NCBI RefSeq assembly: GCF_003259375.1
Contig: NZ_QLLN01000009.1
Span: 62,001 to 126,000, forward strand
DNA: 64,000 nucleotides
Source of the DNA: Arenibacter echinorum
Lineage (GTDB): Bacteria; Bacteroidota; Bacteroidia; Flavobacteriales; Flavobacteriaceae
Direction of reading: 5' to 3'
Positions 32,157-53,952 of the stretch are shown here, piece after piece. The notes beneath the pieces were generated by a model, which saw nothing but the letters and a program-made list of their open reading frames with translations, searched no databases and had not been told where the DNA came from. A program made the translations under genes and the position numbers. Each line of letters starts with the position of its first letter. Positions within the stretch are counted from its first letter, which is position 1.

Positions 32157-32243
32157 CAATGAACAATTAGCAAGGAACAATTGTTAGTGATCAGTGAACA
32201 GTAAACAGTAGTCAGTGAACAGTAGCAGTAATTAGTGGTCAGA
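32157..32243 (+). repeat. Degenerate 7-base repeat array, AACAGTG type
   Basis: Beginning right after the stop codon, the sequence falls into 7-base units such as ACAATGA, ACAATTA, ACAATTG, TCAGTGA, ACAGTAA, ACAGTAG and TCAGTGA, with one shortened unit. The units are degenerate but hold phase. Further short pieces of the same kind lie at about 32322-32346, and TTTTGGC-type heptads at 32409-32436. Confidence 0.8.
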
Positions 32244-32251
32244 GGGCTGCC

Positions 32252-32314
32252 CGTCACTTCGAGCCTGCCTACCGGCAGGTAGGTGATCCGACGAAGGAGG
32301 ATTGTCTCGAGAAG
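32252..32314 (-). repeat. Palindromic intergenic element copy 1 (core A with nested hairpin)
   Basis: Starts CGTCACTTCGAG and ends CTCGAGAAG, the constant arms of the dispersed element. The core is TGATCCGACGAAGGAGGATT. A 20-base insert, CCTGCCTACCGGCAGGTAGG, sits between left arm and core and can form alternative hairpins. A similar insert sits at the same place in the copy at 39448. Confidence 0.8.
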
Positions 32315-32481
32315 GGATTACAGTAATCAGTGGACAGTTGTACAGTTGAAACAGAAAATTCTCCTTCCACTGGTCAGGGGGAGGAGCGAAAATTCCCGTC
32401 AACCTCTTGTCTTTTGGCTAATGGCTATTGACTCTTTTATCATGACATTTACCTTCCTTTAGTCTTATTCAACAACTAATG

Positions 32482-32521
32482 AAAAAAGCACCTTCATCGG
32501 TTTAGGAGAAGGTACTTTTTT
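32482..32521 (-). terminator. Intrinsic terminator of the epimerase operon
   Basis: AAAAAAGCACCTTC (32482-32495) pairs with GAAGGTACTTTTTT (32508-32521), with one mismatch and a 12-base loop. Its A and T tracts allow action in both directions. It ends the minus-strand operon 33 bases after the last stop codon. Confidence 0.8.
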
Positions 32522-32553
32522 AGTCAAATAGTTATGTCCTAAGTTCATTCGCC

Positions 32554-33447
32554 CTATTTAAAATCGGGCCAATACTCCTTTATTTTCTTTCTTAAAAAGG
32601 CCACACTGCGTTCCAACTGATCCATTCCGTCCACACCGTCTTCAATACTGATCCAGCCATCAAAACCAACTCTTTTCAATTCCTTGAAAATGGCATCATA
32701 ATCGTTTAGGCCCTTCCCTATCTCACCATGGCTAAGTCTTTTGGCATAGCCCATGGCTCCACCTTCTTCCTTGCGCAGATCTTCAATGGTACCTTCTTTT
32801 AGGTAACGGTCGCTGGCATGCATGGTCACTACACGATCGGACACCCGATACAAGAGTTCCAAAGGGTCCTCCCCTGCCAAAAAGGTATTGCTAGGATCGT
32901 AATTGACCCCAAAATTAGGATGGTGGATACGATCTACCAACTTGCAAAAAATGTCCATTTGCTGGGCAAATTCGGGATACTCCCAAAAATCGTCCTTATA
33001 GTGGTTTTCCAATATTAATGTAACTCCCAACTTTTCCGCATGGGGTAGACATTCTTTAATGCAATCCGCAGCAAAGCCGATCCCCTCTTCCATAGTTAAT
33101 TCGGGACGACGCTGTCCTGACAATACCCTACAATAGGAACCGCCCAATGCGTGGGTCATTTCGATCCACCCTATTTGTTTTTTAATTTCTTTTTCCCGAA
33201 AAGCGGCATCAGGATGGGTAAAATCCGGGGAACAGCACAGCATGGGTATTGTTTTTCCATGACGTTCCACTTGCTCCCTAAAAACGGGCCAGTTGGACTT
33301 ATCGGCCATCTCCAAAAATCCGGCGTACCATTCCAATCCGTCTACCTCTAGCTCAACGGCCAGGTCGATCCATTCGGAAACCTTCATAGTTCCATCCTTA
33401 CAAAGTTCATGCATAAATGCTTTGGGAAATACTGCTAATTGTGGCAA
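32554..33447 (-). CDS. Sugar phosphate isomerase/epimerase-like TIM-barrel protein
   Basis: A 297-residue AP-endonuclease-2-like TIM barrel. Metal-ligand-type segments are visible: ILENHYKD (Glu, about 146), NYDPSNTF (Asp, about 186), TMHASDRY (His, about 210) and ISIEDG near 275 (Glu). Such enzymes isomerise or epimerise keto sugars, hydroxypyruvate or inosose. It is the last gene of a four-gene operon with an SDR, a Zn-ADH and a HUMPS-family enzyme, so it probably handles a keto-sugar intermediate of one pathway. The exact substrate is unknown. Confidence 0.85.
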   Translation of the reverse strand: MPQLAVFPKAFMHELCKDGTMKVSEWIDLAVELEVDGLEWYAGFLEMADKSNWPVFREQVERHGKTIPMLCCSPDFTHPDAAFREKEIKKQIGWIEMTHALGGSYCRVLSGQRRPELTMEEGIGFAADCIKECLPHAEKLGVTLILENHYKDDFWEYPEFAQQMDIFCKLVDRIHHPNFGVNYDPSNTFLAGEDPLELLYRVSDRVVTMHASDRYLKEGTIEDLRKEEGGAMGYAKRLSHGEIGKGLNDYDAIFKELKRVGFDGWISIEDGVDGMDQLERSVAFLRKKIKEYWPDFK

Positions 33448-33473
33448 ATCTTTATTCTTTTAATGTTATTAAA

Positions 33474-34274
33474 TTATTTCTTTTTATGGGAACCTTCCCA
33501 GTTCTTGGGGAGGTTACGCCCTATAATGGGGAACTGTTCCAAGTCCATCACTTGGGAACTAACAGGTCCGCATTCATCGGAAAGCCAATAAAGGCAGGCT
33601 GATGCTATTTCTTCGGGGGTAAAAATTCGTTGTGCAGGGGCAAAAATGTCCGGTATGTCTTTATACCAATCCGATTTCATCCCCTGTTCCTTCTTGTTCA
33701 ATATTTCCTTTTCCGTAAGTACCCAACCTGGGTTGATCTGGTTTACGCGTACGCCGTATTCCCGAAACAAACTGTCGCCCAGATTCCTCGTCAAGGTCAT
33801 CAATGCCCCTTTGGACATGCTATAAGCCAATAGATCGGGTTCCCCGCCCCAGGCGTTAATGGAACCTATATTGAGTACACAACCGCGAACAGCGGATAAA
33901 TGAGGTAATGCTGCCTGAATGATCATTAGAGGAGCAATGGAATTCACTGCCAACATACGTTTCATAAAAGGTACTTCGGTGCTTGTAATATTGGAGGAAG
34001 CAATATAGGCGGCATTGTTCACAACGGCGTTCAATTTTCCAAATTTAGATATGGCCTCCTCTACCAATAATTGCGGGGCACTTTCCTCGGTGATATCCAT
34101 AGTAAGATGACCAACATTATCCGCACCCAATTCCTCCAGCAGTGCCAAGCCTATTTCCTCTTCCAAGCCGTTGACCAATACCTTGGCCCCTTCCTGTACG
34201 CTGCGCTTGGCTATGGCCTTGCCTATACCGGTATATCCTCCCGTTATTAAAACTACTTTATCCTTTAAACGCAT
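33474..34274 (-). CDS. SDR-family oxidoreductase
   Basis: A 266-residue short-chain dehydrogenase. The cofactor motif TGGYTGIGKAI is at about 11-21, NNAAY (NNAG equivalent) at about 86-90, the catalytic Ser in NIGSIN at about 138 and YSMSK (Tyr and Lys) at about 151-155. An acidic residue after beta-2 is not obvious, so NADP preference is possible. It lies 26 bases before the epimerase gene and 5 bases after the ADH gene, so the three are tightly linked. It is likely to oxidise or reduce a sugar or polyol hydroxyl. Confidence 0.9.
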   Translation of the reverse strand: MRLKDKVVLITGGYTGIGKAIAKRSVQEGAKVLVNGLEEEIGLALLEELGADNVGHLTMDITEESAPQLLVEEAISKFGKLNAVVNNAAYIASSNITSTEVPFMKRMLAVNSIAPLMIIQAALPHLSAVRGCVLNIGSINAWGGEPDLLAYSMSKGALMTLTRNLGDSLFREYGVRVNQINPGWVLTEKEILNKKEQGMKSDWYKDIPDIFAPAQRIFTPEEIASACLYWLSDECGPVSSQVMDLEQFPIIGRNLPKNWEGSHKKK

Positions 34275-34279
34275 AAGTT

Positions 34280-35305
34280 TTAACTTGGTTTTAAAACACT
34301 TTTCACCACCTTTCCGGAATGCATTTGATCAAAAGCCTCATGCCAATCCTTCAATTCCCAAACCCCACCAATTATAGGCTTTACATCTAAAGCTCCGGAA
34401 GCCAAAAGGGAAAGCACTTTTTCCCATATGGGCCAGTTATGGCTAAAGCTACCCTGTAGGGTAACATTCTTTTGCACTAATGGATCCAAGGAGAAGTTTA
34501 GAGGTTGTGGGCCCCACCCAACCTTGGTAATATGTCCATTGGGACGCACCAATTGTAAGGCAATTTTTAGCGTAGCACTTGCCCCGGCTGCGTCTATAAT
34601 GCAATCCGCTCCCAACCCATCTTGTTTATTGGCCCAAGCACTTGCGTCTCCCACAATTCCCTCACATCCATATTGCTTGGCGATGTTCAATCTTTCCCTA
34701 TCGGATTCCAATCCAACAATGGCTACTTCGGCACCACATAAGCGCGCCATGGCAGCACAAAGGATGCCTATGGTCCCAGGTCCCAATACAATAACCCTGT
34801 CCCCTGGTTTAATTTTAGAGTTCATCACCACCGCACTATATGCCACCGAACAGGGCTCGGTTAAACAGGCTTGCTCAAAAGGTAAATTTTCCGGTACAGC
34901 GTGCAGACATCTGGCAGGTACCTTAACAAAACGGGTCATGGCACCATTTACCCCATATCCAAATCCCTTTCTAGTTGGATCCAGGTTGTAAAGGCCTTGT
35001 CTAGAAAGCGGACTGTTCTGATCTATTATTGCAGCGGTCTCACTTACTACCCTATCACCTTCCTTCCATCCGATTACCCTTTTCCCCAATGCCGCAATAT
35101 GGCCACCAAACTCGTGCCCAAGCACCACGGGATAATTTACAGGCCAACTATGGTCTGAAGTCCATTGATGCAGATCACTTCCGCACACCCCAACGTTGGC
35201 CACTTCCAACAACACATCATCTTCGCCAATACTTGGCTTTTCTATTTCCCTAATTTCTACACTTCCTGGCTCGGAAGAGAAATTTACTACTCCTATTGAA
35301 CTCAT
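34280..35305 (-). CDS. Zinc-type medium-chain alcohol dehydrogenase lacking the structural-zinc cysteines
   Basis: A 341-residue MDR enzyme. Catalytic-zinc ligands are present (GVCGSDLHQW, Cys38; GHEFGG, His63-Glu64), and the nucleotide-binding motif is LGPGTIGIL (about 174-182). The lobe that normally carries four structural-zinc cysteines reads SETAAIIDQNSPLSRQGLYN, with none, so this subtype has lost that site. Glu147-type ligand LTEPCSVAY is intact. It is probably an NAD-dependent polyol or sugar-acid dehydrogenase of the operon's pathway. Confidence 0.9.
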   Translation of the reverse strand: MSSIGVVNFSSEPGSVEIREIEKPSIGEDDVLLEVANVGVCGSDLHQWTSDHSWPVNYPVVLGHEFGGHIAALGKRVIGWKEGDRVVSETAAIIDQNSPLSRQGLYNLDPTRKGFGYGVNGAMTRFVKVPARCLHAVPENLPFEQACLTEPCSVAYSAVVMNSKIKPGDRVIVLGPGTIGILCAAMARLCGAEVAIVGLESDRERLNIAKQYGCEGIVGDASAWANKQDGLGADCIIDAAGASATLKIALQLVRPNGHITKVGWGPQPLNFSLDPLVQKNVTLQGSFSHNWPIWEKVLSLLASGALDVKPIIGGVWELKDWHEAFDQMHSGKVVKSVLKPS

Positions 35306-35336
35306 TTTTTTGATTCTTTTATTTTGTAATTGTTGA

Positions 35337-36035
35337 TTAACGTGTTACTTCCCCGTAGGCATGAATCTTTTCACATATAAGTCGCAAAGAACTTTCCAAG
35401 TCACCATCGGCAGTCTTAAAGGAATCTGCATCTATAGTCAAGGGAGCTCCCAGTACTACCATTGGCGCCCCATATTCTGGACAGCGTATGGCCTGTTCCA
35501 AGGTTAGTCCACCCACCGCCTGTACCGGAACTTTAACGGCATTGACCACCTCGCGCAATTGATCCATTGGGCTTGGCATTTTTAAGCCTTGGGCAGCAAT
35601 TCCACGGCGTTCGTCATAACCTATATGATGGATTATATAGTCACAGCCAAGGTCTTCCAACCATTTGGCCCCTTCCACCATATCCGGACAACCTAAATTA
35701 TCGCCCATTACCTTTACCCCGTAATCTTTGCCGGCCTGTACTACGACTTTAATAGTTTCTGCATGTGCCCTGGCCATTACCACCACATGGGTAGCTCCAG
35801 CCTTTGCCATCATTTCGGCCTCCAAATACCCTCCGTCCATCGTCTTAAGATCAGCTACTATAGGGATATTAGGAAACGCCTCCCTTAATTTTCGAACCCC
35901 GTGCAATCCTTCTGCCAGAATAAGGGGAGTGCCCGCTTCCAGCCAGTCCACCCCTGCTCGCAATGCCATGGCGGCCGTTTCTAAAGCTTCATCTATATTG
36001 GTAAGGTCTAAGGAAATTTGTACAATTGGTTTCAT
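35337..36035 (-). CDS. HUMPS-family enzyme (3-hexulose-6-phosphate synthase / 3-keto-gulonate-6-phosphate decarboxylase type)
   Basis: A 232-residue orotidine-monophosphate-decarboxylase-fold barrel. The active-site signature ADLKTMDGG (DxKxxD, about 61-69) and an HHIGYDERRG segment (about 136-145) are those of 3-hexulose-6-phosphate synthases and 3-keto-L-gulonate-6-phosphate decarboxylases. The family makes or breaks a C-C bond through an enediolate. It is first in the operon with ADH, SDR and epimerase. No sugar kinase is in the operon, so the phosphorylated substrate must come from elsewhere, or the substrate is not phosphorylated. Confidence 0.85.
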   Translation of the reverse strand: MKPIVQISLDLTNIDEALETAAMALRAGVDWLEAGTPLILAEGLHGVRKLREAFPNIPIVADLKTMDGGYLEAEMMAKAGATHVVVMARAHAETIKVVVQAGKDYGVKVMGDNLGCPDMVEGAKWLEDLGCDYIIHHIGYDERRGIAAQGLKMPSPMDQLREVVNAVKVPVQAVGGLTLEQAIRCPEYGAPMVVLGAPLTIDADSFKTADGDLESSLRLICEKIHAYGEVTR

Positions 36036-36479
36036 AAATGGTCAATAAATTTTTAAATTATAAAGTTGTATTTTTTGATTTACCGTAAGCCGTAATCAAT
36101 CTAAAACACTAGTAAAAAGTTAATTAAAAGCGTTGATTTTTTGGGCTGCAGCGTCAATCCAAAGATAAAGAATCACAATACATAAAATTTATCAATTATA
36201 AATCCAATATTACCCTTTTATGATTTATCAACCCTGGTATGGCCACAATCAATAATAAACATGCCCAATGTTTGCCAATGCCATTATTGTCTTTTATATT
36301 CTTGGAAGAACTATTATTATTGCAAAAGATAAATTTTAGATAATACTAATTTAATACCCAATAAAGTTAAATAAGCCAATTTTGCCACCTTAAAATGTAA
36401 AGAACCTAAGTCTCCCGTTAGGGATTAAATCCACTCAAAACATAGTATCCAAAATCATTTTTACCCAATTACCTATATA
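36036..36479 (+). other. 444-base divergent intergenic region
   Basis: This lies between the HUMPS operon (minus) and the TonB receptor (plus) and must hold promoters for both. It is strongly AT-rich. I see no ORF, riboswitch, convincing -7/-33 pair or repeat element. The absence of a regulator gene in or next to it is notable for a catabolic operon. Confidence 0.5.
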
Positions 36480-38537
36480 ATGACCTTAGCTTTAAATAGT
36501 CCTTCCAAATTTCTTTTTGCCATAATTTTCAACTGTATCACAGGATTCCTTTTTGGCCAGGAAAACTCCCGGTCCCAAAATGACTCTTTACCCTTAAACA
36601 CTTTGGAGGAGGTAGTGGTTACGGCAAACCGATACGGATCTTCACAATACAAGACCCCGGAAGCCATTGAGGTTGTCAACAACAATTCCATTCAGAGATT
36701 TCAATTGCGTACTGCTCCTGAAGCACTGCTATTGGCTCCCGGGGTGTTTGTACAAAAAACCAACCATGGAGGCGGATCGCCATTTTTAAGGGGATTAACG
36801 GGGAACCAAACCTTACTGCTATATGACGGTATCCGACTTAATAATGCCACGGTAAGATCGGGACCCAACCAATATTTTAATACTATTGATGTGTTCAGCG
36901 TTGGGAAAATGGAGGTTTTACGCGGTAGCGGTTCTGTACAATATGGTTCCGATGCCGTAGGGGGAACCATCCAAGCCTTGAGCAAGGAGGTAGAAACGGC
37001 CGAAAAGTCGGTTTGGGGTACGGACCTTTTTACCCGATTTGTGACGCAGGGCATGGAACAGACAGCCAACGCGGCCTTAAAATACGGGGATAAACGAGCG
37101 GCCTTTAGGGCCAATGCCACTTGGCGAAATTTTGGGGACCTTGTAGGTGGTGATACCACCGGACAACAGACTCCAACAGGCTATCGCGAATTGGATTTTG
37201 ACCTCAAGGGAAAAATATTGCTAACAGACCGTTCCCACCTCACCTCGGTATACCAAAGAGTGCACCAAAAAGATGTGCCCGTATACCACAAGGTAGCCTT
37301 GGAGGATTATGCCATAAATAAGATGGACCCGCAAAAAAGGGAATTGGCCTATCTTAGACTCCACCAAGACCTCGGAAACAATATCTTTAAAACTGCGGTG
37401 GTCACCGCTTCCTACCAGCATCATGAGGAAGGTAGGATATTGCAAAAAAATGGTTCAAATTCCCTACGTACCGAAAACGATAAGGTGAGGACCTTTGGAT
37501 TTTCGGCCGAAACATTTTCGGGCCATGGAAAAATATGGTCTGCAAATAGTGGGGTCGAGATCTATAACGACAAGGTAAAAAGTAGTCGCAACGATAAGGA
37601 TCTAACCACCAATACTGAAACGGCCAGTCGCGGATTATATCCAGATGGGGCCACCATGACCAGTATTGCCGCTTTTAGCATGCATACCTTGAGCATGGAG
37701 AAATGGGATATTACAGCAGGTTTGCGGTTCAATACCTTTATCAACAAAGTGACCGATTCGGTCTTGGGTGCTACCAAACTTACACCCTCGGCATTAGTTG
37801 GAAATCTGGCAGTGCAGCGAAGATTGAATGAAACATCTAATGTCTTTGCCTCCATCAATACAAGCTTTAGGGCTCCGAATATTAATGATCTTGGTTCCTT
37901 GGGCATAGTAGATTTTCGATATGAAACACCCAATTTCGATTTAAAACCGGAACATTCCCTACAATATCAACTAGGCTACAAATTTCGGAATCGTGTCGTG
38001 AAGGCCGAAGTATTTTTATATCGCAATGAATTGTACGATTTAATTGTGCGCAACAGAATAGCTGGTGACAGCATTGAAGGTTATCCTGTTTATCAAAAGA
38101 AAAATGTGGAACGCGGCTTTATCCAAGGGGCCGAAATGGGATTGGATCTAAGCCTGAATCCGAATTGGAACCTATCAGGCAATATGACCTATACCTATGG
38201 CCAGAATAAAACCAGTGATGAACCTGCACGCCGCATCCCGCCTATATTTGGGCGATTGGCCACCTCCTACTCCATAAAGAACTGGAACCTCAATGCTGAT
38301 TGGCTCTTGGCCGGCAAACAGGATCGTTTGGCTTCTGGGGATATAGACGATAATAGAATCCCTCTCGGGGGCACCCCTGGTTGGAACGTCCTAAATATTC
38401 ATGGCAGTTATTCCATTAGCTACATTACCATCGCTGTTGGACTACAGAATATCTTCAATGAGGATTATAGATACCATGGTTCTGGAGTGAATGGATATGG
38501 TAGGTCTGGAGTGCTATCTGTTTCTGCTAGGTTGTAG
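36480..38537 (+). CDS. TonB-dependent receptor (siderophore/vitamin type)
   Basis: A 685-residue outer-membrane receptor. A signal peptide (about 1-26, GFLFGQ) is followed by a TonB-box-like LEEVVVTANR, a plug domain (about 50-165, with FVQKTNHGGGSPFLRGLTGN and MEVLRGSGSVQYGSDAVGG) and a barrel ending VLSVSARL, a typical last strand. It lacks the carboxypeptidase-like N-terminal domain of SusC types and looks like the iron, heme or cobalamin group. It is divergent from the HUMPS operon. Transport of that operon's sugar is possible but not supported by its type. Confidence 0.9.
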   Translation: MTLALNSPSKFLFAIIFNCITGFLFGQENSRSQNDSLPLNTLEEVVVTANRYGSSQYKTPEAIEVVNNNSIQRFQLRTAPEALLLAPGVFVQKTNHGGGSPFLRGLTGNQTLLLYDGIRLNNATVRSGPNQYFNTIDVFSVGKMEVLRGSGSVQYGSDAVGGTIQALSKEVETAEKSVWGTDLFTRFVTQGMEQTANAALKYGDKRAAFRANATWRNFGDLVGGDTTGQQTPTGYRELDFDLKGKILLTDRSHLTSVYQRVHQKDVPVYHKVALEDYAINKMDPQKRELAYLRLHQDLGNNIFKTAVVTASYQHHEEGRILQKNGSNSLRTENDKVRTFGFSAETFSGHGKIWSANSGVEIYNDKVKSSRNDKDLTTNTETASRGLYPDGATMTSIAAFSMHTLSMEKWDITAGLRFNTFINKVTDSVLGATKLTPSALVGNLAVQRRLNETSNVFASINTSFRAPNINDLGSLGIVDFRYETPNFDLKPEHSLQYQLGYKFRNRVVKAEVFLYRNELYDLIVRNRIAGDSIEGYPVYQKKNVERGFIQGAEMGLDLSLNPNWNLSGNMTYTYGQNKTSDEPARRIPPIFGRLATSYSIKNWNLNADWLLAGKQDRLASGDIDDNRIPLGGTPGWNVLNIHGSYSISYITIAVGLQNIFNEDYRYHGSGVNGYGRSGVLSVSARL

Positions 38538-38586
38538 TTTTGGGTTACAAGGTTGGGTTGTAATCAATATTTAACATCTTAAACTT
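38538..38586 (+). repeat. Short degenerate 7-base repeat array
   Basis: From the stop codon of the receptor gene the sequence can be cut as TAGTTTT, GGGTTAC, AAGGTTG, GGTTGTA, ATCAATA, TTTAACA, TCTTAAA. This is a weak 7-base pattern, less regular than the other arrays, but in the same position directly after a stop codon. Confidence 0.45.
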
Positions 38587-38608
38587 GAGTGCTTCTCGGT
38601 GCCGTCTA

Positions 38609-38651
38609 CTTCTCGATACAATCCTCCTCTGTCGGATCACTCGAAGTGACG
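38609..38651 (+). repeat. Palindromic intergenic element copy 2 (core A)
   Basis: CTTCTCGATACAA arm, core TCCTCCTCTGTCGGAT, then CACTCGAAGTGACG arm; 43 bases. With the preceding GAGTGCTTCTCGGTGCCGTC it is nearly identical to the copy at 39138. It lies 28 bases before the end of the GIY-YIG gene. Confidence 0.85.
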
Positions 38652-38679
38652 GTGAATGGAAAATATGTTGAAAGATGTC

Positions 38680-38973
38680 CTACATTCTAAATTTTTTCTT
38701 CGCTAAATTGGGTAATTTTTCGAACTCGTTATTAATTAATGCTTCCTTTTTAGCCCTTGACCATTTCTTAATTTGCTTTTCTGTTAGGATGGCTAAATTT
38801 ATATCTGAAAATTCAGCATAGTAAACCAATGATAACGGTCTTCGAGTAAACGTATAACTATCTTTGTGGATTCCTGAAATATGTTCCAAAAGTCGTCCGT
38901 TTAAATTTGATGTTACACCTGTATAGTATGAATCATCAGAACATTTAAGAATATATACATAGGACAATTTCAT
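38680..38973 (-). CDS. GIY-YIG nuclease-domain protein
   Basis: A 97-residue stand-alone GIY-YIG (UvrC N-terminal-like) nuclease domain. The motif is YVYILKCSDDSYYTG (about 5-19), followed by the conserved Arg27 in NLNGRLLEH and the Glu side in LTEKQIKKWSRAKKEALI. It is complete for this short family. It sits alone between copies 2 and 3 of the palindromic element (28 and 31 bases away), with no functional partner gene. A homing-type or repeat-associated role is possible; a repair role is the alternative. Confidence 0.88.
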   Translation of the reverse strand: MKLSYVYILKCSDDSYYTGVTSNLNGRLLEHISGIHKDSYTFTRRPLSLVYYAEFSDINLAILTEKQIKKWSRAKKEALINNEFEKLPNLAKKKFRM

Positions 38974-39004
38974 GATTAATATGATTCTATCATCAGTTCA
39001 AGTC

Positions 39005-39057
39005 CTTCTCGATACAATTTTATTTCGTTTCACTCCATAAAACCACTCGAAGTGACG
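39005..39057 (+). repeat. Palindromic intergenic element copy 3 (core B)
   Basis: 53 bases: arms CTTCTCGATACAA and CACTCGAAGTGACG around a core containing TTTTAT...ATAAAA, which can fold as an inner hairpin. It lies 31 bases upstream of the GIY-YIG start codon. Confidence 0.85.
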
Positions 39058-39137
39058 GTAAGCAGGCTCGAAATGAAGGGCATTCGACTTTGCTTCTCTG
39101 TTCTATCGACAGTTCGAGTGCTTCTCGGTGCCGTCTA

Positions 39138-39180
39138 CTTCTCGATACAATCCTCCTCTGTCGGATTACTCGAAGTGACG
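39138..39180 (+). repeat. Palindromic intergenic element copy 4 (core A)
   Basis: 43 bases, differing from copy 2 by a single base (TCGGATTACTC instead of TCGGATCACTC); the preceding 20 bases also match copy 2. Confidence 0.85.
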
Positions 39181-39247
39181 GGTATTCAACATTTACTCTT
39201 TTAAACTTCTAACATCTTAGTTTGAGGTTCTTTCGTCAGTTCGAGCA

Positions 39248-39300
39248 CTTCTCGATACAATTTTGCTCCACTTCGTTATGCAAAATCACTCGAAGTGACG
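39248..39300 (+). repeat. Palindromic intergenic element copy 5 (core C)
   Basis: 53 bases; the same arms around a core with TTTTGC...GCAAAA (inner hairpin). It is the first of three copies spaced exactly 100 bases apart. Confidence 0.85.
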
Positions 39301-39347
39301 GGCGATAGCCATTTTGTATCGAGAACCAGTATGGTTCAAAACGTCTA

Positions 39348-39400
39348 CTTCTCAAACCAATTTTATTTCGTTTCACTCCATAAAATCACTCGAAGTGACG
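39348..39400 (+). repeat. Palindromic intergenic element copy 6 (core B)
   Basis: 53 bases; left arm slightly decayed (CTTCTCAAACCAA), core as in copy 3. It follows a linker beginning GGCGATAGCCATTTTGTAT that recurs after this copy. Confidence 0.8.
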
Positions 39401-39447
39401 AGCGATAGCCATTTTGTATAGATAACCTTTAGGGTAACCCGTGCCTG

Positions 39448-39521
39448 CTTCTCGATACAATTTTGCTCCACTTCGTTATGCAAAACCACCTGCCCGACAG
39501 GCTGGCGGGCTCGAAGTGACG
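39448..39521 (+). repeat. Palindromic intergenic element copy 7 (core C with nested hairpin)
   Basis: Arms and core as copy 5, but with a 21-base insert (CCTGCCCGACAGGCTGGCGG plus G) just inside the right arm, the same place as the nested insert of copy 1. Confidence 0.8.
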
Positions 39522-39549
39522 ACTTTGATCTTTGAACTGAAAACTTAGG

Positions 39550-39755
39550 TCTAGATTCTAGATTTTAGGATCTCACTTCTCAATTCTAATTGCTCAATAC
39601 TAAATCTCAACTTTCAACATTCCGACTGTCGACTGCCCACTGATTACTGATCACTGATTACTGATCACTGATTACTGTTTACTATTCACTGTTAACTTTT
39701 CACTGATTACTGTTTACTGTTCACTGTTTATTGTTAATTGCCAATTGTTCACTCT
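39550..39755 (-). repeat. Long degenerate 7-base repeat array ending at a stop codon
   Basis: About 29 consecutive 7-base units can be read without losing phase, e.g. TAGATTC, TAGATTT, TAGGATC, TCACTTC, TCAATTC, TCAATAC, CAACTTT, CAACATT, TCGACTG, CCCACTG, ATTACTG, ATCACTG, ATTACTG, TTCACTG, TTTATTG, CCAATTG. The unit type drifts gradually along the array. On the strand of the adjacent gene it begins GAGTGAACAATTGGC, where TGA is that gene's stop codon. Confidence 0.88.
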
Positions 39756-42469
39756 TCATCATCCGTCTTATTCTCATAGTGATTTACCCTTGCATCGTCC
39801 TCGTTATCCATAGGAGGGCCCTGTTCAATTTTGCGCCAATCGATGGTTTTATTGTACTTCTTCATAGAAAGTTCGGCATTGTACATACGTTCATCATGCC
39901 GTTCCATGGTATAGGGCGTATAGTCGGGCTCCGAAGTGAAAAAATCTTGAAGTAAGGACGCCGTAACATCGAATTGATTTACATAGGGCACATTCAAAAT
40001 GTTGTACATGGTTTTTAAAATAGCTCCAAAATTGGCATGGGTGTTGGAAACATAGCCTTTTTTAACATAAGGGCCCGCCATCATTAAAATGGACCTATGG
40101 GCGTCCACGTGATCTACACCGCCCTGGGGATCATCCTCCGTGATGATTACCAGCATATTCTTCCAGTATTTGGTCCTGGACAGAAAATGCAATACCCTTC
40201 CTACCGCCAAGTCATTATCTACCATAAAGGATTGTGGGTAAGGATAGCCATCTTCGGGACGTATTCTTGCCCCGTGATCATTGGGCAACATCATGGTCAC
40301 CAATTGTGGCATTTCTTCCTCCCCTTCAATCCATTTCTCTGTAAACTCCCTTTCAAACTGATCCATTCTGTATTGGTCCGGGATATTCATATTATAACCG
40401 GCAAAGTCGTGGCTGGTCCTTGTAAACAAAGCCTTTTGCATAGGCACCATCACCCCGTGGGCAGCGCCGGTATTTGTATCGTACCATTCTTCGCGCACAT
40501 GTGCCGTTTCGTTGGCCTGTCCAAAATTGTAGAAAGAAACTTTTTCCCTATCCAAGGCTTCCCATAGTCCACCAATCTCCGCATAATCCTCGGGGTCTAC
40601 ACTTCCAATAGTGCCTGGGTGACGACGCCCGGGAGCGTCCGAGAATATTTTGGCAGTCTTGCTAACGCTGGCATTGGCCTCTACCCATTCGTTGGGAATA
40701 ACCCCTACCAGCCAATGATGTCCGTGAACCGAAGCATCACTATCGCAATAGTAATTGTCCGAATAGGCAAATTGCTTTGCAGCCTTATGGTGGTTGGGTG
40801 AAATACGCAGATTGGGAAACTGGGCCTGAACGGAATCGGGCAAGGTATAGGTATTATTAACGCCATATCGGGCCAAGGTACTATCGCCCTTTCCTGTTTT
40901 AAGCTGGCCAAAAACCTCATCGTAAGTCCTGTTTTCCTTGGTAATATACACCACATGTTTAATAGGACTCTGGCGTAGTTTTGGCAAGGGAGGCAAAGGA
41001 TTGGTCCCATCGTCGGTTATGGTACTTTCCCTGAAGGTATTGTCGATGGACATTTTGGTGTACTTTGCAAGTTTTTCATCGCTTGGCATGGCTACCCTTT
41101 GAAAGCTTCCCAATTGAATATCCCCAATGTAATCGCCCTGTGGGGGTTCTACAAAGTCCTTCCCTCCATTGGGTCCGGCCCCAAGTCCTCTACAGGTAAT
41201 AATATAAATGTTCTTTTCATCTTTGGACAATTCAACCCTTGTAGGCCCCCATCCACTGGGAATAAGCCCTTTGGTAGTTTGGGACGGGATATCTATTACG
41301 GCCACCGCATTGAAGCCCAACAAGGCCACGTACAAAGTTTTTTCATCCTTATCCATGGTGATACCAAAAGGCAGGAGACCACGATATTTGTCTATACGGG
41401 CATCGACCTTTATCGGAATATGGCCTACAATTTCCTGACTTAAATGATCAATGATGGTGATATTGTCGTTGGTGGCATTGGTTATATAGGCAAATTGTTT
41501 CCCTACAGCAATGGAGTTGGGACTGGCGCCACCAACCACTTCCGCATCTTCCACGGTCTGTCCTATTTGATGTCCCGTTTTAAATTTTTTGATCACTTTA
41601 TTGTTGTCGAGGTCTATGGTAAAGACACTCATGGCATCCGGGTGCAAAGGACTCCCCAAGCCTGGAACCTTTCGTCCTTCCACTACGGTACCCTCTATGG
41701 ATTCCTTGGTGTTGTCCCCATAAGGGTGATGGGAAATCATTAAGGAATCGTAATTGGCAGGAGTGGCTCCTTCTATCAAAGGATAGGAATACACTCCGAC
41801 ATTGGCCACAAAGGCCTGCTTTTTATCGGGACTGATCGCCAATCCAAAAGGCTGTCTTCCTACATTGACAGATCCCTTTATTTTTTTGGTATCCAGATCG
41901 ATACGCACCAGTCTAAAATTGCCGCGATCCAGCACCAACAATTCGTTCTCGGCTTCATTGATCCGCAGATCGGAAGTAAAACTATCCTGATAATCCTTCC
42001 CGCCAACAAGACCGTTCAAGGAGATTGAATCCACTTTTACAAGATTCTCCACATCGTATTGGATAACTGCTCCCGTATCTCCCCCACTTAAATAAACCGT
42101 TTTGGAATCCTGGGCAAATTCAACCCCCAAAAAAGAACCCTTGGCCAAAGGTGACGGTATGCTGCCATCATAACTGGGAATCCTGACCGACTCCAAGGAG
42201 GCAACATCTATAACCGTAAAAACCCCATTGTGCAGGGTAACCGCCTTGCTCCCATCAGGAGAAACGGCCATCCCAAAGGGATCATGTGTTATCCGCAATT
42301 TATCCCCTACAGGAGTTACATATCTCCCACTGGCCAAAATGGATATTCCATTTTCATCAATAATACTGTACTGATCTTTACCAGGTACCTGTAAAATGGA
42401 AATGCTGTTTTGGCGGGAATTGCAAGAAATAAAAATTAGCGTTAAAAGGAGGATAATTAGCCGATTCAT
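39749..42469 (-). CDS. Lipoprotein with YncE-like beta-propeller and phosphoesterase (alkaline-phosphatase superfamily) domain
   Basis: A 906-residue exported lipoprotein (signal LIFISCNSR, Cys16). Residues about 30-480 form a YncE-type seven-bladed propeller with repeated units such as GRQPFGLAISPDKKQAFVAN and YRGLLPFGITMDKDEKTLYV. Residues about 505-880 form a phosphoesterase domain (HVVYITKENRTYDEVFG; MLPNDHGAR; DDPQGGVDHVDAHRS) with Asp, Asn and His metal ligands. The fusion is known in Bacteroidota; the substrate is unknown, with phosphodiesters or phospholipids most likely. Its stop codon is the first bases of a 7-base repeat array. Confidence 0.87.
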   Translation of the reverse strand: MNRLIILLLTLIFISCNSRQNSISILQVPGKDQYSIIDENGISILASGRYVTPVGDKLRITHDPFGMAVSPDGSKAVTLHNGVFTVIDVASLESVRIPSYDGSIPSPLAKGSFLGVEFAQDSKTVYLSGGDTGAVIQYDVENLVKVDSISLNGLVGGKDYQDSFTSDLRINEAENELLVLDRGNFRLVRIDLDTKKIKGSVNVGRQPFGLAISPDKKQAFVANVGVYSYPLIEGATPANYDSLMISHHPYGDNTKESIEGTVVEGRKVPGLGSPLHPDAMSVFTIDLDNNKVIKKFKTGHQIGQTVEDAEVVGGASPNSIAVGKQFAYITNATNDNITIIDHLSQEIVGHIPIKVDARIDKYRGLLPFGITMDKDEKTLYVALLGFNAVAVIDIPSQTTKGLIPSGWGPTRVELSKDEKNIYIITCRGLGAGPNGGKDFVEPPQGDYIGDIQLGSFQRVAMPSDEKLAKYTKMSIDNTFRESTITDDGTNPLPPLPKLRQSPIKHVVYITKENRTYDEVFGQLKTGKGDSTLARYGVNNTYTLPDSVQAQFPNLRISPNHHKAAKQFAYSDNYYCDSDASVHGHHWLVGVIPNEWVEANASVSKTAKIFSDAPGRRHPGTIGSVDPEDYAEIGGLWEALDREKVSFYNFGQANETAHVREEWYDTNTGAAHGVMVPMQKALFTRTSHDFAGYNMNIPDQYRMDQFEREFTEKWIEGEEEMPQLVTMMLPNDHGARIRPEDGYPYPQSFMVDNDLAVGRVLHFLSRTKYWKNMLVIITEDDPQGGVDHVDAHRSILMMAGPYVKKGYVSNTHANFGAILKTMYNILNVPYVNQFDVTASLLQDFFTSEPDYTPYTMERHDERMYNAELSMKKYNKTIDWRKIEQGPPMDNEDDARVNHYENKTDDEE

Positions 42470-42636
42470 TAGGTTGAATTTAAGGTGTAAATAGATATTT
42501 TAAATATTAAAAAATAATATTACGCATTTTTGGCCAAAGGAAAAGGGTCTTTACAATGATTTTACATTATGTTAAAATAATTTCATTGAAGTAAAAGTGA
42601 CAAACAATCAAGATTGTACACAAGTTCAAGTTCATT

Positions 42637-43776
42637 TCAATTGACGTTCCCATAAATAGGCGCTATAAAATTCCCGTTCAAAAAAGGCTTTGGATCTATC
42701 TGACTTTGCAGAACAACTCCTTTGTGTTCGGACTCCATCAACATAAAAGCAGCCTGAACCATGGGTGCCGCCGTGGTGGTCTGTATGGCCCTAAGTCTGT
42801 GTATCCCTACTTTTTGAGGCAATATTAGCTTGGAAACCTCGCTTCTTCTCAGGATACCCGTACTGTCCTTGCCCTCTACAGCGGCATACAGTACAATTTG
42901 GTCATTCTCTATATGGGGAATTTCACCTTCCATTTTCTCCTGAAGGGTCTTAATGGAAGTATCGGTATTTTTCAAACCTGCAATCTGTTGTTGCACCCAT
43001 GCATAGTGTCCGGGATATCTCAAGGTCTTATAATCCAAGTTTCGCACCTTGCCCGCTAGGGCGTCCGGCAGATCGGCGGCCCCACCTGAAGTGAGGTCCT
43101 CCTCATAGGTCCTGCCGTCTATAATAATAGTTGCCCTTTCTGAGAGGGATTTAAGGGGTACTTTTTTAAAATCACGGACTGCCTCCGCATCTTTAATATA
43201 TTCTGTGGCCACCCCCACTGGACTCCAGGTAAATCCGTAGTAATGTGGTGCCACGGCATGGTCCGTTAAGGCCCCCACCTTAAACTGCAGTTTATCTACC
43301 TTGTCTACCTTATGTTTCTTGCAAAATTCCTGAAAGATATGGTGCGCCAACAGATTGATATACCCTGGTGCCAGACCGGATTGGAGCACAAAACCGGTTT
43401 CGGCATTTTTGGCCAATGCAATTATTTCATTGGTCTCCGCCACATATTCGGTGAGGTTTACATAGTGCATTTTAAAATCTTTGGCATAGCTCGCCATTTT
43501 GGGCGCCAAACTACCGGGCAGACAATCCAAAAGCACATCGCCCTTTGTAAAAATGTCCTCCATTTCTTTGGTCAGGCCAGCTTCGGAAAGGCAAAACGCC
43601 TTGACCATTCCCGGGTCGGTGGTGCCTTTCCCTATCCAATGGGCCACCTTTTCGGCTTTTTCCAGCGTCCGATTGCCAATAAATATTTTTAGGGGTACGT
43701 TTCCCCAATCCGCCATTATTAATCCAACGGCCTGGGCAATACCCCCAGCACCGGCAATAACCATGTTATAAGACAT
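42637..43776 (-). CDS. Saccharopine dehydrogenase-family NAD(P)-binding protein
   Basis: A 379-residue protein with an N-terminal Rossmann fold (MVIAGAGGIAQAVGLIMADW, GxGGxxQ pattern) and a saccharopine-dehydrogenase-like C-terminal half (VLQSGLAPGYINLLAHHIF, HAVAPHYYGFTWSPVG, RYPGHYAW). The family includes saccharopine and carboxynorspermidine synthases and many unassigned enzymes. It is single, 167 bases upstream of the phosphoesterase gene on the same strand. I cannot name its substrate; lysine or polyamine metabolism is possible. Confidence 0.82.
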   Translation of the reverse strand: MSYNMVIAGAGGIAQAVGLIMADWGNVPLKIFIGNRTLEKAEKVAHWIGKGTTDPGMVKAFCLSEAGLTKEMEDIFTKGDVLLDCLPGSLAPKMASYAKDFKMHYVNLTEYVAETNEIIALAKNAETGFVLQSGLAPGYINLLAHHIFQEFCKKHKVDKVDKLQFKVGALTDHAVAPHYYGFTWSPVGVATEYIKDAEAVRDFKKVPLKSLSERATIIIDGRTYEEDLTSGGAADLPDALAGKVRNLDYKTLRYPGHYAWVQQQIAGLKNTDTSIKTLQEKMEGEIPHIENDQIVLYAAVEGKDSTGILRRSEVSKLILPQKVGIHRLRAIQTTTAAPMVQAAFMLMESEHKGVVLQSQIDPKPFLNGNFIAPIYGNVN

Positions 43777-43957
43777 AAATGAGAAGCTTAATATGTTATA
43801 AGAAAGATACCAATTTTTCTTGGAAGTTTCCGCTGTTTTTTGTAGACACTATCTTCCTTTGGAAGACTACATACTTGCTGGTGGGAAGGCTCACACGAAC
43901 AGGCGGGATGCTAAGAGGCAAGAGCCTAGAGCCAAGACTCTATCGACCGTACGAGTG

Positions 43958-44030
43958 CTTCTCGATACTATTTTGCTCCACTTTATTATTCCAAACCACC
44001 AAACTGAAGGTAGGTAGACTTGAAGTGACG
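43958..44030 (+). repeat. Palindromic intergenic element copy 8 (decayed core C)
   Basis: Starts CTTCTCGATACTATTTTGCT and ends TTGAAGTGACG. The centre is altered and carries AAGGTAGGTAG inside the right arm, perhaps a decayed nested insert. The rest of the 43777-44314 gap holds a 7-base array at about 43905-43950 (GCAAGAG, CCTAGAG, CCAAGAC, TCTATCG) and a hairpin, CCCGCTAAAAAGCGGG, at about 44116-44131. Confidence 0.6.
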
Positions 44031-44173
44031 GGCTGACCTCTGTCCATTGTAAGAAGCAGATTGACTCGCAGGCTACCCCTTCCGTCTTCTCCTACGTCGA
44101 AGCCACCTTTTCCTCCCGCTAAAAAGCGGGACAGGCCAAGCTAGGGGAAGGAACACCAGGTTAAACAATTTTC

Positions 44174-44325
44174 AACACAAGACTTTAGTCTAGGCTCTAG
44201 CATCTAGGTTCTTCCAACGCTCCATCTCCGTAAGGACTATCAATTTTTTAACATTGAACTTTGGCCTTTTGCCCAGTGGCTTATGGCTGAAGAAAACTGA
44301 TTACTGAAGACTGTTCACTCAACAC
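44174..44325 (-). repeat. Degenerate 7-base repeat array running into a stop codon
   Basis: Units such as TTTAGTC, TAGGCTC, TAGCATC, TAGGTTC (44182-44211) and ATTGAAC, TTTGGCC, TTTTGCC, CAGTGGC, TTATGGC, TGATTAC, TGAAGAC, TGTTCAC, TCAACAC (44253-44325), with a break between. On the gene's strand the array again begins GAGTGAACAG, with TGA as the stop codon of the FMN-binding gene. Confidence 0.75.
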
Positions 44326-44998
44326 TCTTCAAATAGCTTTTATATTTTCGCAAGCCCTGATTCACCATGGCCACAGCCCCTTGACTTGTCATGGTTGCTC
44401 CGGATATCCCGTCAATAAAATGTCCGTCATCATTGGCTTTTTCAATGGCTTTTTGCAATGTAAAGGTGTCTTCCTCCAAATTGATTTTCACGCCTAAGAA
44501 CTGATCTTCAAATGCTTTTTCGCTAACTGCCGCACCATAACCATCAGATTCTGCCTTGTGCTCAAAGGCTATGTTTTTTATTTCCAAGGTCTTTTTATCC
44601 AACAGCACCTTTGCCCAGATGGCCCCACCAAAACCAACACCCTGTACGGGCAGAACAACTAGATCTGTTCCCTTAACCTCAAATATGGGCAATGAAGTAG
44701 CTTGCCCTCGTGTCGCCAACTTTTTGTACAGGTCACCCGCGCTATCGGTATCTATGGTAGAAATGGTGTTGTTAGATAAATCGAGCTCCTTAAAAATAAT
44801 CAGGTTCTGAATGTCCGTCGTATCCGTAAAAGCAGGTGTTACAAAGGTTGCAATCTCCTTTATACTCGCAGGTAAAGAGGTAGTGGCTTTGGTTTCCTGT
44901 TTTACGGTTTCAATTTTTTGCTCCGTCTGTTTTGGATTTTCCTTGCAGCTCCATCCCAAGACAACCAAGATCATCAAAAGTATTTTTATTTTCTCCAT
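44315..44998 (-). CDS. FMN-binding domain lipoprotein (NqrC/RnfG-like)
   Basis: A 227-residue lipoprotein (VLGWSCKEN, Cys18). The C-terminal half is an FMN_bind domain with the flavinylation motif DGISGATMTS; the Thr at about 202 is the expected site of covalent FMN attachment by an ApbE-type flavin transferase. VQGVGFGGAIWAKVLL (about 130-145) resembles the NqrC/RnfG core. The protein is not beside other Nqr or Rnf genes, so it is a stand-alone extracytoplasmic flavoprotein, perhaps in electron transfer at the envelope. No ApbE gene is in the window. Confidence 0.85.
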   Translation of the reverse strand: MEKIKILLMILVVLGWSCKENPKQTEQKIETVKQETKATTSLPASIKEIATFVTPAFTDTTDIQNLIIFKELDLSNNTISTIDTDSAGDLYKKLATRGQATSLPIFEVKGTDLVVLPVQGVGFGGAIWAKVLLDKKTLEIKNIAFEHKAESDGYGAAVSEKAFEDQFLGVKINLEEDTFTLQKAIEKANDDGHFIDGISGATMTSQGAVAMVNQGLRKYKSYLKSVE

Positions 44999-45103
44999 GT
45001 TTAGTTTTATTTAAAAAGTTCCAAATTGCCCAAAATGCTATTTTTTCGAAGGTAATGCGAAGTCAGAATTCCTGAAATGATTTTGGTCAGTCCCCTATAT
45101 CAA

Positions 45104-45144
45104 GATTCTAGAGGCTAGAAACTAGACACTAGACACTACAGTCA
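45104..45144 (+). repeat. Degenerate 7-base repeat array, CTAGA type
   Basis: GATTC, TAGAGGC, TAGAAAC, TAGACAC, TAGACAC, TACAG: a short run with an exact 7-base period, directly before palindromic element copy 9. Confidence 0.75.
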
Positions 45145-45153
45145 GTTCGAGTG

Positions 45154-45206
45154 CTTCTCGATACAATTTTATTGCGCTGCGCTACATAAAATCACTCGAA
45201 GTGACG
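45154..45206 (+). repeat. Palindromic intergenic element copy 9 (core D)
   Basis: 53 bases: the same arms around core TTTTATTGCGCTGCGCTACA plus TAAAAT. It is the exact reverse complement of copy 10 at 49197, about 4 kb away, with no mismatch. Confidence 0.9.
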
Positions 45207-45243
45207 ACTTTCAACATTGAACTTTAAACCTTGAACAGAACAC

Positions 45244-45412
45244 TTTAGTCCAGTTTCTAGATTCCAGACTCTAGACTCCCGTTTCTAAATTCTCACTACT
45301 AAATACTCAATTCTATACACTCAATACTAATTTCCCACTTCCCAATACACCTTTAGCCCTTCATAACTTTTAACATTGAACATTCAACATTGAACTTTAA
45401 GCTTTCAACATT
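45244..45412 (-). repeat. Long degenerate 7-base repeat array between divergent genes
   Basis: From 45244 the units read TTTAGTC, CAGTTTC, TAGATTC, CAGACTC, TAGACTC, CCGTTTC, TAAATTC, TCACTAC, TAAATAC, TCAATTC, TATACAC, TCAATAC, TAATTTC, CCACTTC, CCAATAC. After a small slip come ATTGAAC, ATTCAAC, ATTGAAC, TTTAAGC, TTTCAAC. The order of unit types is the same as in the array at 39550. Together with the element at 45154 it fills most of the 543-base gap between the FMN-binding and ADH genes. Confidence 0.85.
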
Positions 45413-45541
45413 TTTTAAATCTTTTTGGCTAAATTACACCCCTAAACCATATTAGCATTTTAGCTATTGTACTTTCATGCAATAGCCTTAAAATGATAAT
45501 GATCAATCACATCAACCATAAAAAACAAAAGAAGTAAACGC

Positions 45542-46549
45542 ATGAAATACATTGTTTGTGAGGAACCTGGGGACTTTCAGTTAAAGGAAAAAGAGGCCCC
45601 GATCAGAAAAAAAGGGGAAGCCCTGTTAAAAGTGAACAAGGTGGGTATCTGTGGTACCGACCTGCACGCCTATACCGGCAACCAAGCCTTTTTTACCTAT
45701 CCTAGGATCCTGGGCCATGAACTGGCCACCACTGTACTGGAAATAGACGAAAATGATAAGGGCATTGAGGCGGGCGACAATGTGGTTATCATGCCCTACC
45801 TAAGCTGTGGCCATTGTGTGGCCTGTAGAAACGGCAAGACCAATTGCTGTACCCAGATCCAGGTTTTGGGCATACATACGGACGGCGGCATGCAGGAACA
45901 GATTACCGTTCCGGTTGATATATTGTTGCCCGCCAAGCACCTGACCAACGAACAAATGGCCATTGTGGAGCCTTTGGCCATAGCGGCACATTCCATCCGA
46001 CGGGCTCAGATAGTAGCTGGGGAAACGATTGTTGTAGTAGGTTGTGGTCCCATAGGAATCGGTATCATGAAACTGGCCCAGATAGAAGGGGCCAAGGTCA
46101 TTGCCCTGGACATGAACCAGGACCGACTTCAGTATGCCAAGGAAAAAATCGGGGTGGACCATATTGTAAATGTCACCGAAGACCCCGTAAAACAGATTTC
46201 AGAAATTACCAATGGCGATATGGCCACGGCCGTATTCGATGCCTCGGGTCATAAGGGGGCCTTGGAACAGGGACCTTCCTATATGTCGCACGGCGGTAGG
46301 TATATTTTAGTGGGACTCTCCAAAGGGGAACTTACCTTTACCCACCCGGCCATACACGCCAAGGAGACCACCCTTATGTGTAGTAGAAATGCCACGGTGG
46401 CCGATTTTGAAAGGGTCATTGCCATATTGGACCAGTTCCCCACAGAATCTTTCATTACCCACAACGTGCATTTCTCAGAGATGAAGGAGAATTTCGATAG
46501 CTGGTTAAAACCCGCCACAGGAGTAATAAAAGCTACCGTAGAATTTTAA
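45542..46549 (+). CDS. Zinc-type alcohol dehydrogenase, probable sugar (fucose/galactose-type) dehydrogenase
   Basis: A 335-residue MDR enzyme with both zinc sites: catalytic GICGTDLHAY (Cys37) and GHE (His61-Glu62), and the structural four-cysteine lobe CGHCVACRNGKTNCC (about 91-105). The nucleotide motif is VGCGPIGIG (about 165-173). It is followed after 20 bases by a UxaA-type dehydratase and then an amidohydrolase lactonase. In that set it should oxidise an aldose to its lactone, the first step of a non-phosphorylating pathway for L-fucose, L-rhamnose or L-galactose-type sugars. The sugar is inferred. Confidence 0.85.
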   Translation: MKYIVCEEPGDFQLKEKEAPIRKKGEALLKVNKVGICGTDLHAYTGNQAFFTYPRILGHELATTVLEIDENDKGIEAGDNVVIMPYLSCGHCVACRNGKTNCCTQIQVLGIHTDGGMQEQITVPVDILLPAKHLTNEQMAIVEPLAIAAHSIRRAQIVAGETIVVVGCGPIGIGIMKLAQIEGAKVIALDMNQDRLQYAKEKIGVDHIVNVTEDPVKQISEITNGDMATAVFDASGHKGALEQGPSYMSHGGRYILVGLSKGELTFTHPAIHAKETTLMCSRNATVADFERVIAILDQFPTESFITHNVHFSEMKENFDSWLKPATGVIKATVEF

Positions 46550-46569
46550 AAAAAAAATAGCATCCCAAT

Positions 46570-48222: not shown

Positions 48223-48247
48223 CTGGCCTCTCCGAAGGAGAGCTAAA

Positions 48248-48318
48248 GAACCTAAAACCCAAAAAACTTTCAACATTCAACTTTATAACTTTATAACTTT
48301 ATAACATAATACATTAAA
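48248..48318 (+). repeat. Degenerate 7- and 8-base repeat array inside the operon
   Basis: TAAAGAA, CCTAAAA, CCCAAAA, AACTTTC, AACATTC, then AACTTTAT three times (8-base period), between the dehydratase and lactonase genes. It is the only array found between genes of one operon. Confidence 0.7.
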
Positions 48319-48327
48319 CCTTCAACC

Positions 48328-49158: not shown

Positions 49159-49165
49159 GGGAGAA

Positions 49166-49196
49166 GTAATCAGTGAACAGTGGTCAGTTGACAGCC
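49166..49196 (+). repeat. Short 7-base repeat array, AACAGTG type
   Basis: AGTAATC, AGTGAAC, AGTGGTC, AGTTGAC, AG: four exact-period units starting a few bases after the lactonase stop codon and running into palindromic element copy 10. Confidence 0.8.
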
Positions 49197-49249
49197 CGTC
49201 ACTTCGAGTGATTTTATGTAGCGCAGCGCAATAAAATTGTATCGAGAAG
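49197..49249 (-). repeat. Palindromic intergenic element copy 10 (core D)
   Basis: Exact reverse complement of copy 9 (45154-45206) over all 53 bases. Confidence 0.9.
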
Positions 49250-49256
49250 CCCTCGG

Positions 49257-49299
49257 TTCTCGATACAAAATGCCTAACGGCATTTCACTCGAACTGACG
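49257..49299 (+). repeat. Palindromic intergenic element copy 11 (core E)
   Basis: TTCTCGATACAAAATGCC...GGCATTTCACTCGAACTGACG, with an inner hairpin AAATGCC/GGCATTT around TAAC. The right arm has one change (GAACTGACG). It follows copy 10 by seven bases in the opposite orientation. Confidence 0.8.
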
Positions 49300-49312
49300 A
49301 CAGAACTAAATC

Positions 49313-49411: not shown

Positions 49412-49429
49412 AATGCCCTCACGGAGATT

Positions 49430-53803: not shown

Positions 53804-53952
53804 ATAACTTTTTATGTCATCCACCGAAGAAAAAACTAATCTATTAAAATTGGTTGGAGCTGAAAACCATTAAAAAATGAATCCGATCCAAATAGAGAAT
53901 AAGGTTAACCCAAATTGGCATTCCACAAAGGCTGCCCTTTAACAGTGTTTTA

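Follow-up and report, generated by a model that had tools for sequence, protein, structure and literature searches.

Degenerate heptanucleotide arrays with drifting units in Arenibacter echinorum crowd into repeat-rich islands

Main finding
Arrays with a 7-base period, real but degenerate, are found mainly between the genes of Arenibacter echinorum, and their kind is already described in other bacteria. They probably grow and shrink by neutral slippage combined with point mutation, and nothing was found to call for a dedicated enzyme or for a conserved function. Together with REP-like palindromes the arrays crowd into bounded, repeat-rich islands; one such island recurs at the corresponding gene block in the Arenibacter relatives examined. 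This clustering is the most surprising feature of the arrays, and slippage alone does not account for it.

Arrays of the window
The window, meaning the whole 64-kb stretch of DNA that was analysed, comes from a contig of 138,692 bases in a draft genome of 5.19 Mb, and its features are collected in Table 1. In the main array the 7-base phase is held over about 29 units while the unit passes from TCTAGAT through TCTCAAT and AACATT to ACTGNNN, with ATTGNNN closest to the gene; the array reaches the stop codon of a 906-aa ORF (39749-42469, minus strand). The 7-base period claimed for it by a first-pass annotation is real: lag-7 identity is 0.704, compared with 0.292 ± 0.031 in dinucleotide-preserving shuffles (0/1000 as high), and the values at lag 6 (0.230) and lag 8 (0.232) lie under the shuffle mean. 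The first 79 bases, which precede the ACTG run, give 0.625 by themselves (0/1000 shuffles). The same annotation had named disappearance of the period without its best units as grounds for refutation; with the six best unit steps removed, identity stays at 0.656 over 157 positions against 0.296 expected from composition, so this test does not refute the period. No TAACTGA direct repeats were found by reading 39550-39755. A known structured RNA was rejected, as no Rfam family matched at its gathering score in 30000-52000, and the minus strand of the main array has no unusually stable RNA fold (z-score -0.20). The two genes on either side of the main array also enclose a 97-aa ORF with a GIY-YIG domain (38680-38973).

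Table 1. Repeat features of the window
Feature	Coordinates	Strand	Basis
Main degenerate heptad array	39550..39755	+	Lag-7 identity, read unit types
ACTGNNN-type array (CAGTGAA on +)	32157..32245	-	Lag 7 0.585, 0/1000 shuffles
Short mixed array of CTAG, AACATT, GGCT and ACTG types	44174..44314	+	Lag 7 0.485, 0/1000 shuffles
CTAGACA-type array	45104..45144	+	Lag 7 0.735, 0/1000 shuffles
Drifting array, CTAGA, CTAAAT/CTCAAT, AACATT	45244..45413	+	Lag 7 0.595, 0/1000 shuffles
AACTTT-core array of mixed period 7 and 8 (AACTTTC / AACTTTAT)	48248..48325	+	
Four CAGTNNN units	49166..49195	-	Lag 7 0.696, 0/1000 shuffles
CTCTTNN and GGCTTTT arrays	49457..49813	+	
REP-like palindromic element (GTCACTTCGAG ... 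CGAACTGACGAC)	49198..49301	none	Sequence reading, motif counts
Second REP-like palindromic element (GTCATTGCGAG ... CTCGCAATGACG)	49313..49411	none	Sequence reading, motif counts
Repeat island	32157..49828	none	10-kb bins

The other sites that had been listed also hold at lag 7, with at most 2 of 1000 shuffles reaching any of 11 stretches, some of them overlapping. The lag-7 maximum of six array-bearing intergenic regions was reached by 0/500 shuffles, that of six other hand-picked intergenic regions of the window by 10 to 489 of 500. A 70-base scan of the whole window returned four stretches at or above 0.6 at lag 7, one at lag 8, and none at lags 4-6 and 9-13. In the AACTTT-core array, which varies among relatives, period 8 is at least equal to period 7 (0.629 at lag 8 and 0.563 at lag 7, each 0/1000). 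Several arrays abut gene ends: the one at 32157 begins right behind the stop of ORF 31633-32154, that at 44174 extends to the stop of ORF 44315-44998 (minus strand), and the CAGTNNN units stand behind the stop of ORF 48328-49158. A 99-bp array stretch is duplicated locally at 49489-49587 and 49730-49828 (96% identical). ORF 49406-49936 consists largely of arrays; its matches in relatives, among those listed, are only interrupted ones, and we take it as non-coding.

The island holds the window's arrays; the six REP-like motifs that were counted have their matches in the 30-50 kb bins. GC content falls to 0.29-0.35 next to it, at 52000-62000, and the genes at 50704 and 51962 have matches of 63-80% and 35-83% identity, in the few relatives where they were found.

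Islands in the genus
In 29 stretches of the A. echinorum genome (591 kb), 32 arrays were detected at lag 7, compared with 2, 4, 2, 7, 0 and 0 at lags 5, 6, 8, 9, 10 and 11. Seventeen of these stretches had been picked for ACTG pattern hits, one is the window, and 11 were placed blindly (220 kb); none of the 32 arrays falls in the blindly placed ones. The pattern ACTGNTNACTGNTNACTG is present in 16/18 genomes of the genus and its backward reading in 11/18, so a hit to it is not core-specific.

In A. palladensis (G011) 23 arrays lie within about 37 kb of 179 kb scanned, and in A. troitsensis (G017) 19 lie within about 29 kb of 180 kb, with no arrays in the first 100 kb of either contig, where the two are 92-94% identical. 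REP-like motifs in both species fall in the 10-kb bins that hold arrays and in two bins beyond, save for one hit of a further motif. Over about 17-19 kb within the island the two species are unalignable, and the island is therefore also a site of gene turnover. In a third relative, G003, with another surrounding gene order, 6/8 arrays lie in the single stretch that carries the orthologous amidohydrolase gene, a stretch deliberately included in a sample of 20. Across 28 stretches of the A. echinorum genome, 17 of them chosen for ACTG hits, arrays and REP-like motifs co-occur with a Spearman coefficient of 0.74. Stretches at lag 8 (10 in the G011 contig and 7 in the G017 contig) were seen in the same islands as those at lag 7, which makes period 8 a minor companion of period 7.

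Two simple explanations of the islands were rejected. Longer gaps alone do not produce them: in G011, with mechanical calls of ORFs of at least 120 aa, all 23 arrays fall in 100-141 kb, where 24 gaps average 439 b; in the array-free parts the averages are 106 b (90 gaps) and 136 b (24 gaps). A link of the islands to the origin or terminus of replication fails as well. In G011, G017 and G008 dnaA is about 0.1 Mb away from the gene block that is rich in arrays, but G003 has this block at 3.47 Mb; the GC skew of G003, taken from 20 stretches, changes sign at 1.8-2.0 Mb and 4.2-4.4 Mb and flips to a smaller extent at 1.06 and 3.22 Mb. Our guess is that crowding reflects tolerance of junk in zones of gene turnover.

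Change between relatives
Comparison of orthologous intergenic regions, which the first-pass annotation had proposed, showed that arrays recur at shared sites with differing units. In six orthologous gaps a lag-7 maximum of at least 0.6 was reached in 6/6, 5/10, 5/6, 7/7, 3/10 and 4/5 genomes, A. echinorum included. Among indels of at least 4 nt, 23/34 inside arrays were multiples of 7 versus 3/28 elsewhere, in nine pairwise Arenibacter comparisons that share species and with an aligner that tends to gap at multiples of the period. One array shows differences of 7 and 14 bases between G011 and G017, flanked by matching sequence, and in the small sample of flank-anchored indels from one pair multiples of 7 made up 3/3 versus 1/5 (p = 0.14). 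Judged by eye, the gap preceding the amidohydrolase gene holds no AACTTT units in G006, two in G017 and more in the other eight genomes. Set against its counterpart in G016, the window's array behind the 906-aa ORF is so different that only the gene-proximal end could be aligned; the flanking protein is 98% identical.

Core, spacer and unit order
Arrays frequently have the look of a fixed 4-base core followed by three free bases. The core seen most often is ACTG, in 21/135 arrays, seven of which come from plasmids picked by similarity, and in 10/20 cored arrays of the A. echinorum sample. Island sequence (137 kb) contains 97 instances of ACTG-N3-ACTG, 41-fold the expected number; in array-free DNA the figure is 1.56-fold, rank 29 of 256, and ACTG as a generally frequent pattern was thus rejected. 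It is not a core unique to arrays of the phylum either, as a four-core ACTGNYN pattern is present in 40/148 Bacteroidota genomes and its backward control in 27/148. The control pattern, with GTCA cores every 7 bases, is very frequent in G118, G130, G138 and G153 (up to 208 and 227 matches); some Bacteroidota are therefore rich in other core families.

The ACTG core recurs at many A. echinorum loci and on plasmids of cyanobacteria, Mycetohabitans and Pantoea, plasmid arrays that were found by similarity and thereby selected for this core; ACTGNNN arrays are present on plasmids of Gloeothece and Nostoc. On a megaplasmid of Mycetohabitans rhizoxinica (L184, 967-1169) runs of identical units shift step by step from TTACTGA to TTACTGG, TCACTGA and TCGTCGG, so that drift is plain to see in this betaproteobacterium. 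Within the family of Arenibacter, G046 carries long ACTGATA arrays.

In orthologous ACTG units the core differs by 3-18% per column and the spacer by 28-41%, a contrast that could be due to selection or to an alignment effect. Units containing CT or AG exceed shuffled units in A. echinorum (27/31 vs 21.6), in relatives (60/70 vs 48.8) and in other genera (24/27 vs 16.8, several Algoriphagus arrays being orthologous). In perfect ACTG runs, identical spacers make up 0.17 of 77 neighbouring pairs and 0.34 of 47 pairs at distance 2. The pyrimidine strand of the arrays has a G content of 0.113 and a C content of 0.237. One conserved gene of Algoriphagus is preceded by a heptad array in which CT recurs and which runs up to the ATG; 8/11 aligned sequences reach the lag-7 threshold (L134 at 6578-6657; L145, L157, L160, L161, L165, L167 and L182 near 9044-9161), units differ between sequences, and two records belong to one species.

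The same order of unit types had been reported at 39550 and 45244. It stands for these two arrays, which share CTAG, then CTCAAT/CTAAAT, then AACATT types; as a general rule it was rejected. In the A. echinorum sample the GGCT type precedes ACTG 6 times and follows it 3 times, and AACNTT precedes ACTG 3 times and follows it 3 times; at nine loci of relatives, with shared sites, GGCT precedes ACTG in 8/8 and AACNTT precedes it 4 times and follows it 8 times. Orders are thus mixed, despite a preference for GGCT then ACTG in 14/17 neighbouring pairs overall, the relatives' sites being shared. Counts of two-unit motifs exceed a Markov control for ACTG (41 vs 6.3), AACNTT (16 vs 1.3) and GGCT (24 vs 13.0) and not for the CTAG type (19 vs 17.3) or the CTMAAT type (7 vs 5.0).

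Orientation at gene ends
Only 10/92 arrays lie inside mechanically called ORFs of at least 90 aa, so the arrays are mainly intergenic. A stop codon is no more than 25 nt away from 28 of the 78 intergenic arrays, where random placement predicts 12.1, and a start codon from 6, where 9.3 are expected. At least 4 of the 28 stop-proximal arrays are, by eye, weak A-rich stretches in array-free DNA, and the ORF calls are mechanical. The sense strand of these 28 is purine-rich in 26 and exactly even in 2, and CAGTGAACAGTAA exemplifies a purine-rich stop-proximal unit sequence with stops. Further downstream of stops no strand bias was seen (27 purine, 30 pyrimidine). Inside ORFs, 8/10 arrays have the stop-poor orientation, those of the doubtful ORF 49406-49936 included. 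A reading-frame filter by stop codons fits the orientation of arrays at gene ends, and MacGregor 2015 (PMC4679880) makes the same argument for TAACTGA. Selection for stops within arrays was rejected by column shuffles, with 920 stops vs 943.7 ± 14.8 on the purine strand and 585 vs 593.7 ± 15.0 on the pyrimidine strand.

Slippage, point mutation and alternative readings
In the mechanism proposed, arrays would gain or lose 7, 14 or 21 bases per step, most likely through slipped-strand mispairing when the DNA is replicated or repaired, and the units would be altered by point mutation. New units would be copied from adjoining units, and such copying would keep the phase of the array constant while the unit drifts. 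We infer that the copying step is slippage and not recombination. Arrays that overrun a gene end would survive where the sense strand provides stop codons.

Slippage and point mutation were simulated, and simulated arrays were selected in the same way as observed ones. Simulated lag-7 identity at ratio 3 is 0.637 vs 0.637 observed, and spacer-minus-core entropy is 0.43-0.455 vs 0.497 observed in 61 arrays. Identical neighbouring spacers amount to 0.28-0.40 at mutation/slippage ratios of 1-6; the observed values are 0.27 in the A. echinorum sample, 0.41 in relatives and 0.39 in other genera. Mean column entropy of simulated arrays (0.96-1.10) lies under the observed 1.18, and this, with the low neighbour identity in perfect ACTG runs, leaves the match incomplete. 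A ratio of about 1-3 point changes to one slippage event is what the simulation needs. Since the neutral simulation reproduces the lag-7 identity and the core/spacer look, no special enzyme is needed, and preservation of the core by selection was rejected as the contrast is nearly matched. The first-pass annotation had suggested growth by slippage or templated copying without a fixed unit. Its slippage part is upheld by the interspecies indels in multiples of 7 and by the simulation, and its templated part, as copying between arrays, gained no support, since sharing of neighbouring spacer pairs between loci is 0.0055 vs 0.0078 in shuffles, 288/300 of which reach it. Against slippage, independent events should not yield the same core, ACTG, repeatedly, and the excess of CT or AG in the units also counts against it.

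One alternative would cover both this recurrence and the islands: a region-bound, sequence-preferring enzyme with a 7-base step (a polymerase, nuclease or repair factor) might expand CT-containing cores such as ACTG inside islands tied to gene blocks, so that the same cores would arise anew across loci and phyla and intergenic DNA outside would stay free. We hold it to be improbable. Another reading, also unlikely, takes the arrays as tandem binding sites under selection, whose short core is read every 7 bases in untranslated leaders or trailers by a putative RNA- or single-strand-binding protein of the S1, cold-shock or Csr type, which MacGregor (PMC4679880) suggested in the case of TAACTGA, or by a DNA-binding protein. 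The lower divergence of core columns than of spacer columns among orthologues agrees with such sites, as do the Algoriphagus array at a conserved ATG, one array that retains the core AACTTT with a spacer of one or two bases, and the recurrence of ACTG across loci and phyla. Weighing against them are the similar core/spacer contrast of the neutral simulation, the unrelated families of neighbour genes with Pfam matches, the lack of enrichment near gene starts, and an array make-up that differs strongly between species. A dispersed mobile or templated element that lays arrays by copying units between loci, perhaps with the REP-like palindromes, is very unlikely: the stretches shared with REP-like motifs, the one unit family at many loci, and the common order of three types in two window arrays with GGCT before ACTG speak for it, but spacer-pair identity between loci is not above shuffles, the remaining unit orders are mixed, and the A. 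echinorum genome has no Y1 (REP-type) transposase match at E <= 0.001. That search for the Y1 (RAYT) family (PF01797) gave 0 matches, and its control was positive in 5/14 genomes; REP-like palindromes are present in the A. echinorum genome without such a match. Slippage with point mutation remains the preferred reading of array growth.

Relation to known heptanucleotide repeats
The arrays fit prokaryotic intergenic heptamer repeats in having a period of 7 above chance, a mainly intergenic location and copy variation by whole units. Gramella, Aequorivita and Elizabethkingia are flavobacteria. The earlier statement that no equivalent was described in flavobacteria is wrong, since MacGregor 2015 (PMC4679880) describes heptamer arrays in Gramella forsetii, Aequorivita sublithincola and Elizabethkingia anophelis, where further heptamers share the intergenic regions. 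The paper also reports relatives with the same gene neighbours and without obvious repeats, and stop codons placed in all three frames by forward TAACTGA repeats. Both systems are intergenic heptamers, and TAACTGA is a rotation of ACTGATA and falls within the ACTGNNN type. However, TAACTGA is treated there as one fixed unit and, in the main genome of the paper, stands mostly just before start codons, whereas in Arenibacter the unit drifts within the array and arrays are enriched at stops.

Heterogeneous heptamers, (GGGANTN)n, are described for Xanthomonas, with similar ones in Nostoc, in PMC4692102. Like the present arrays they are degenerate heptamers with conserved and variable positions and strong variation in length and sequence, and two related species mostly carry them between the same genes; unlike the G-poor Arenibacter arrays, they are G-rich and quadruplex-forming. 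PMC4692102 also mentions heptanucleotides of Calothrix. According to Mrazek 2007, as relayed in PMC4679880 and PMC4692102, heptanucleotides are the commonest long simple sequence repeats in most genomes studied, and slippage was proposed for them in view of the polymerase footprint. Those repeats are runs longer than expected, whereas most Arenibacter arrays are degenerate. Among the matches listed, which came mostly from outside subscription journals, no other account of such arrays was recognised. The short tandemly repeated heptamers of cyanobacteria are described as a few fixed units; they resemble the present arrays as tandem heptanucleotides and differ from them in that the Arenibacter units drift.

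Significance
To heptamer repeats whose units are mostly fixed, Arenibacter and other Bacteroidota add arrays that drift and mix unit types, and a neutral model accounts for most of the appearance of these arrays with no special enzyme. The bounded islands, which relatives share and which are found at one gene block even where a rearrangement has occurred, and the repeated appearance of ACTG cores make the question of why the step is seven testable in culturable marine bacteria.
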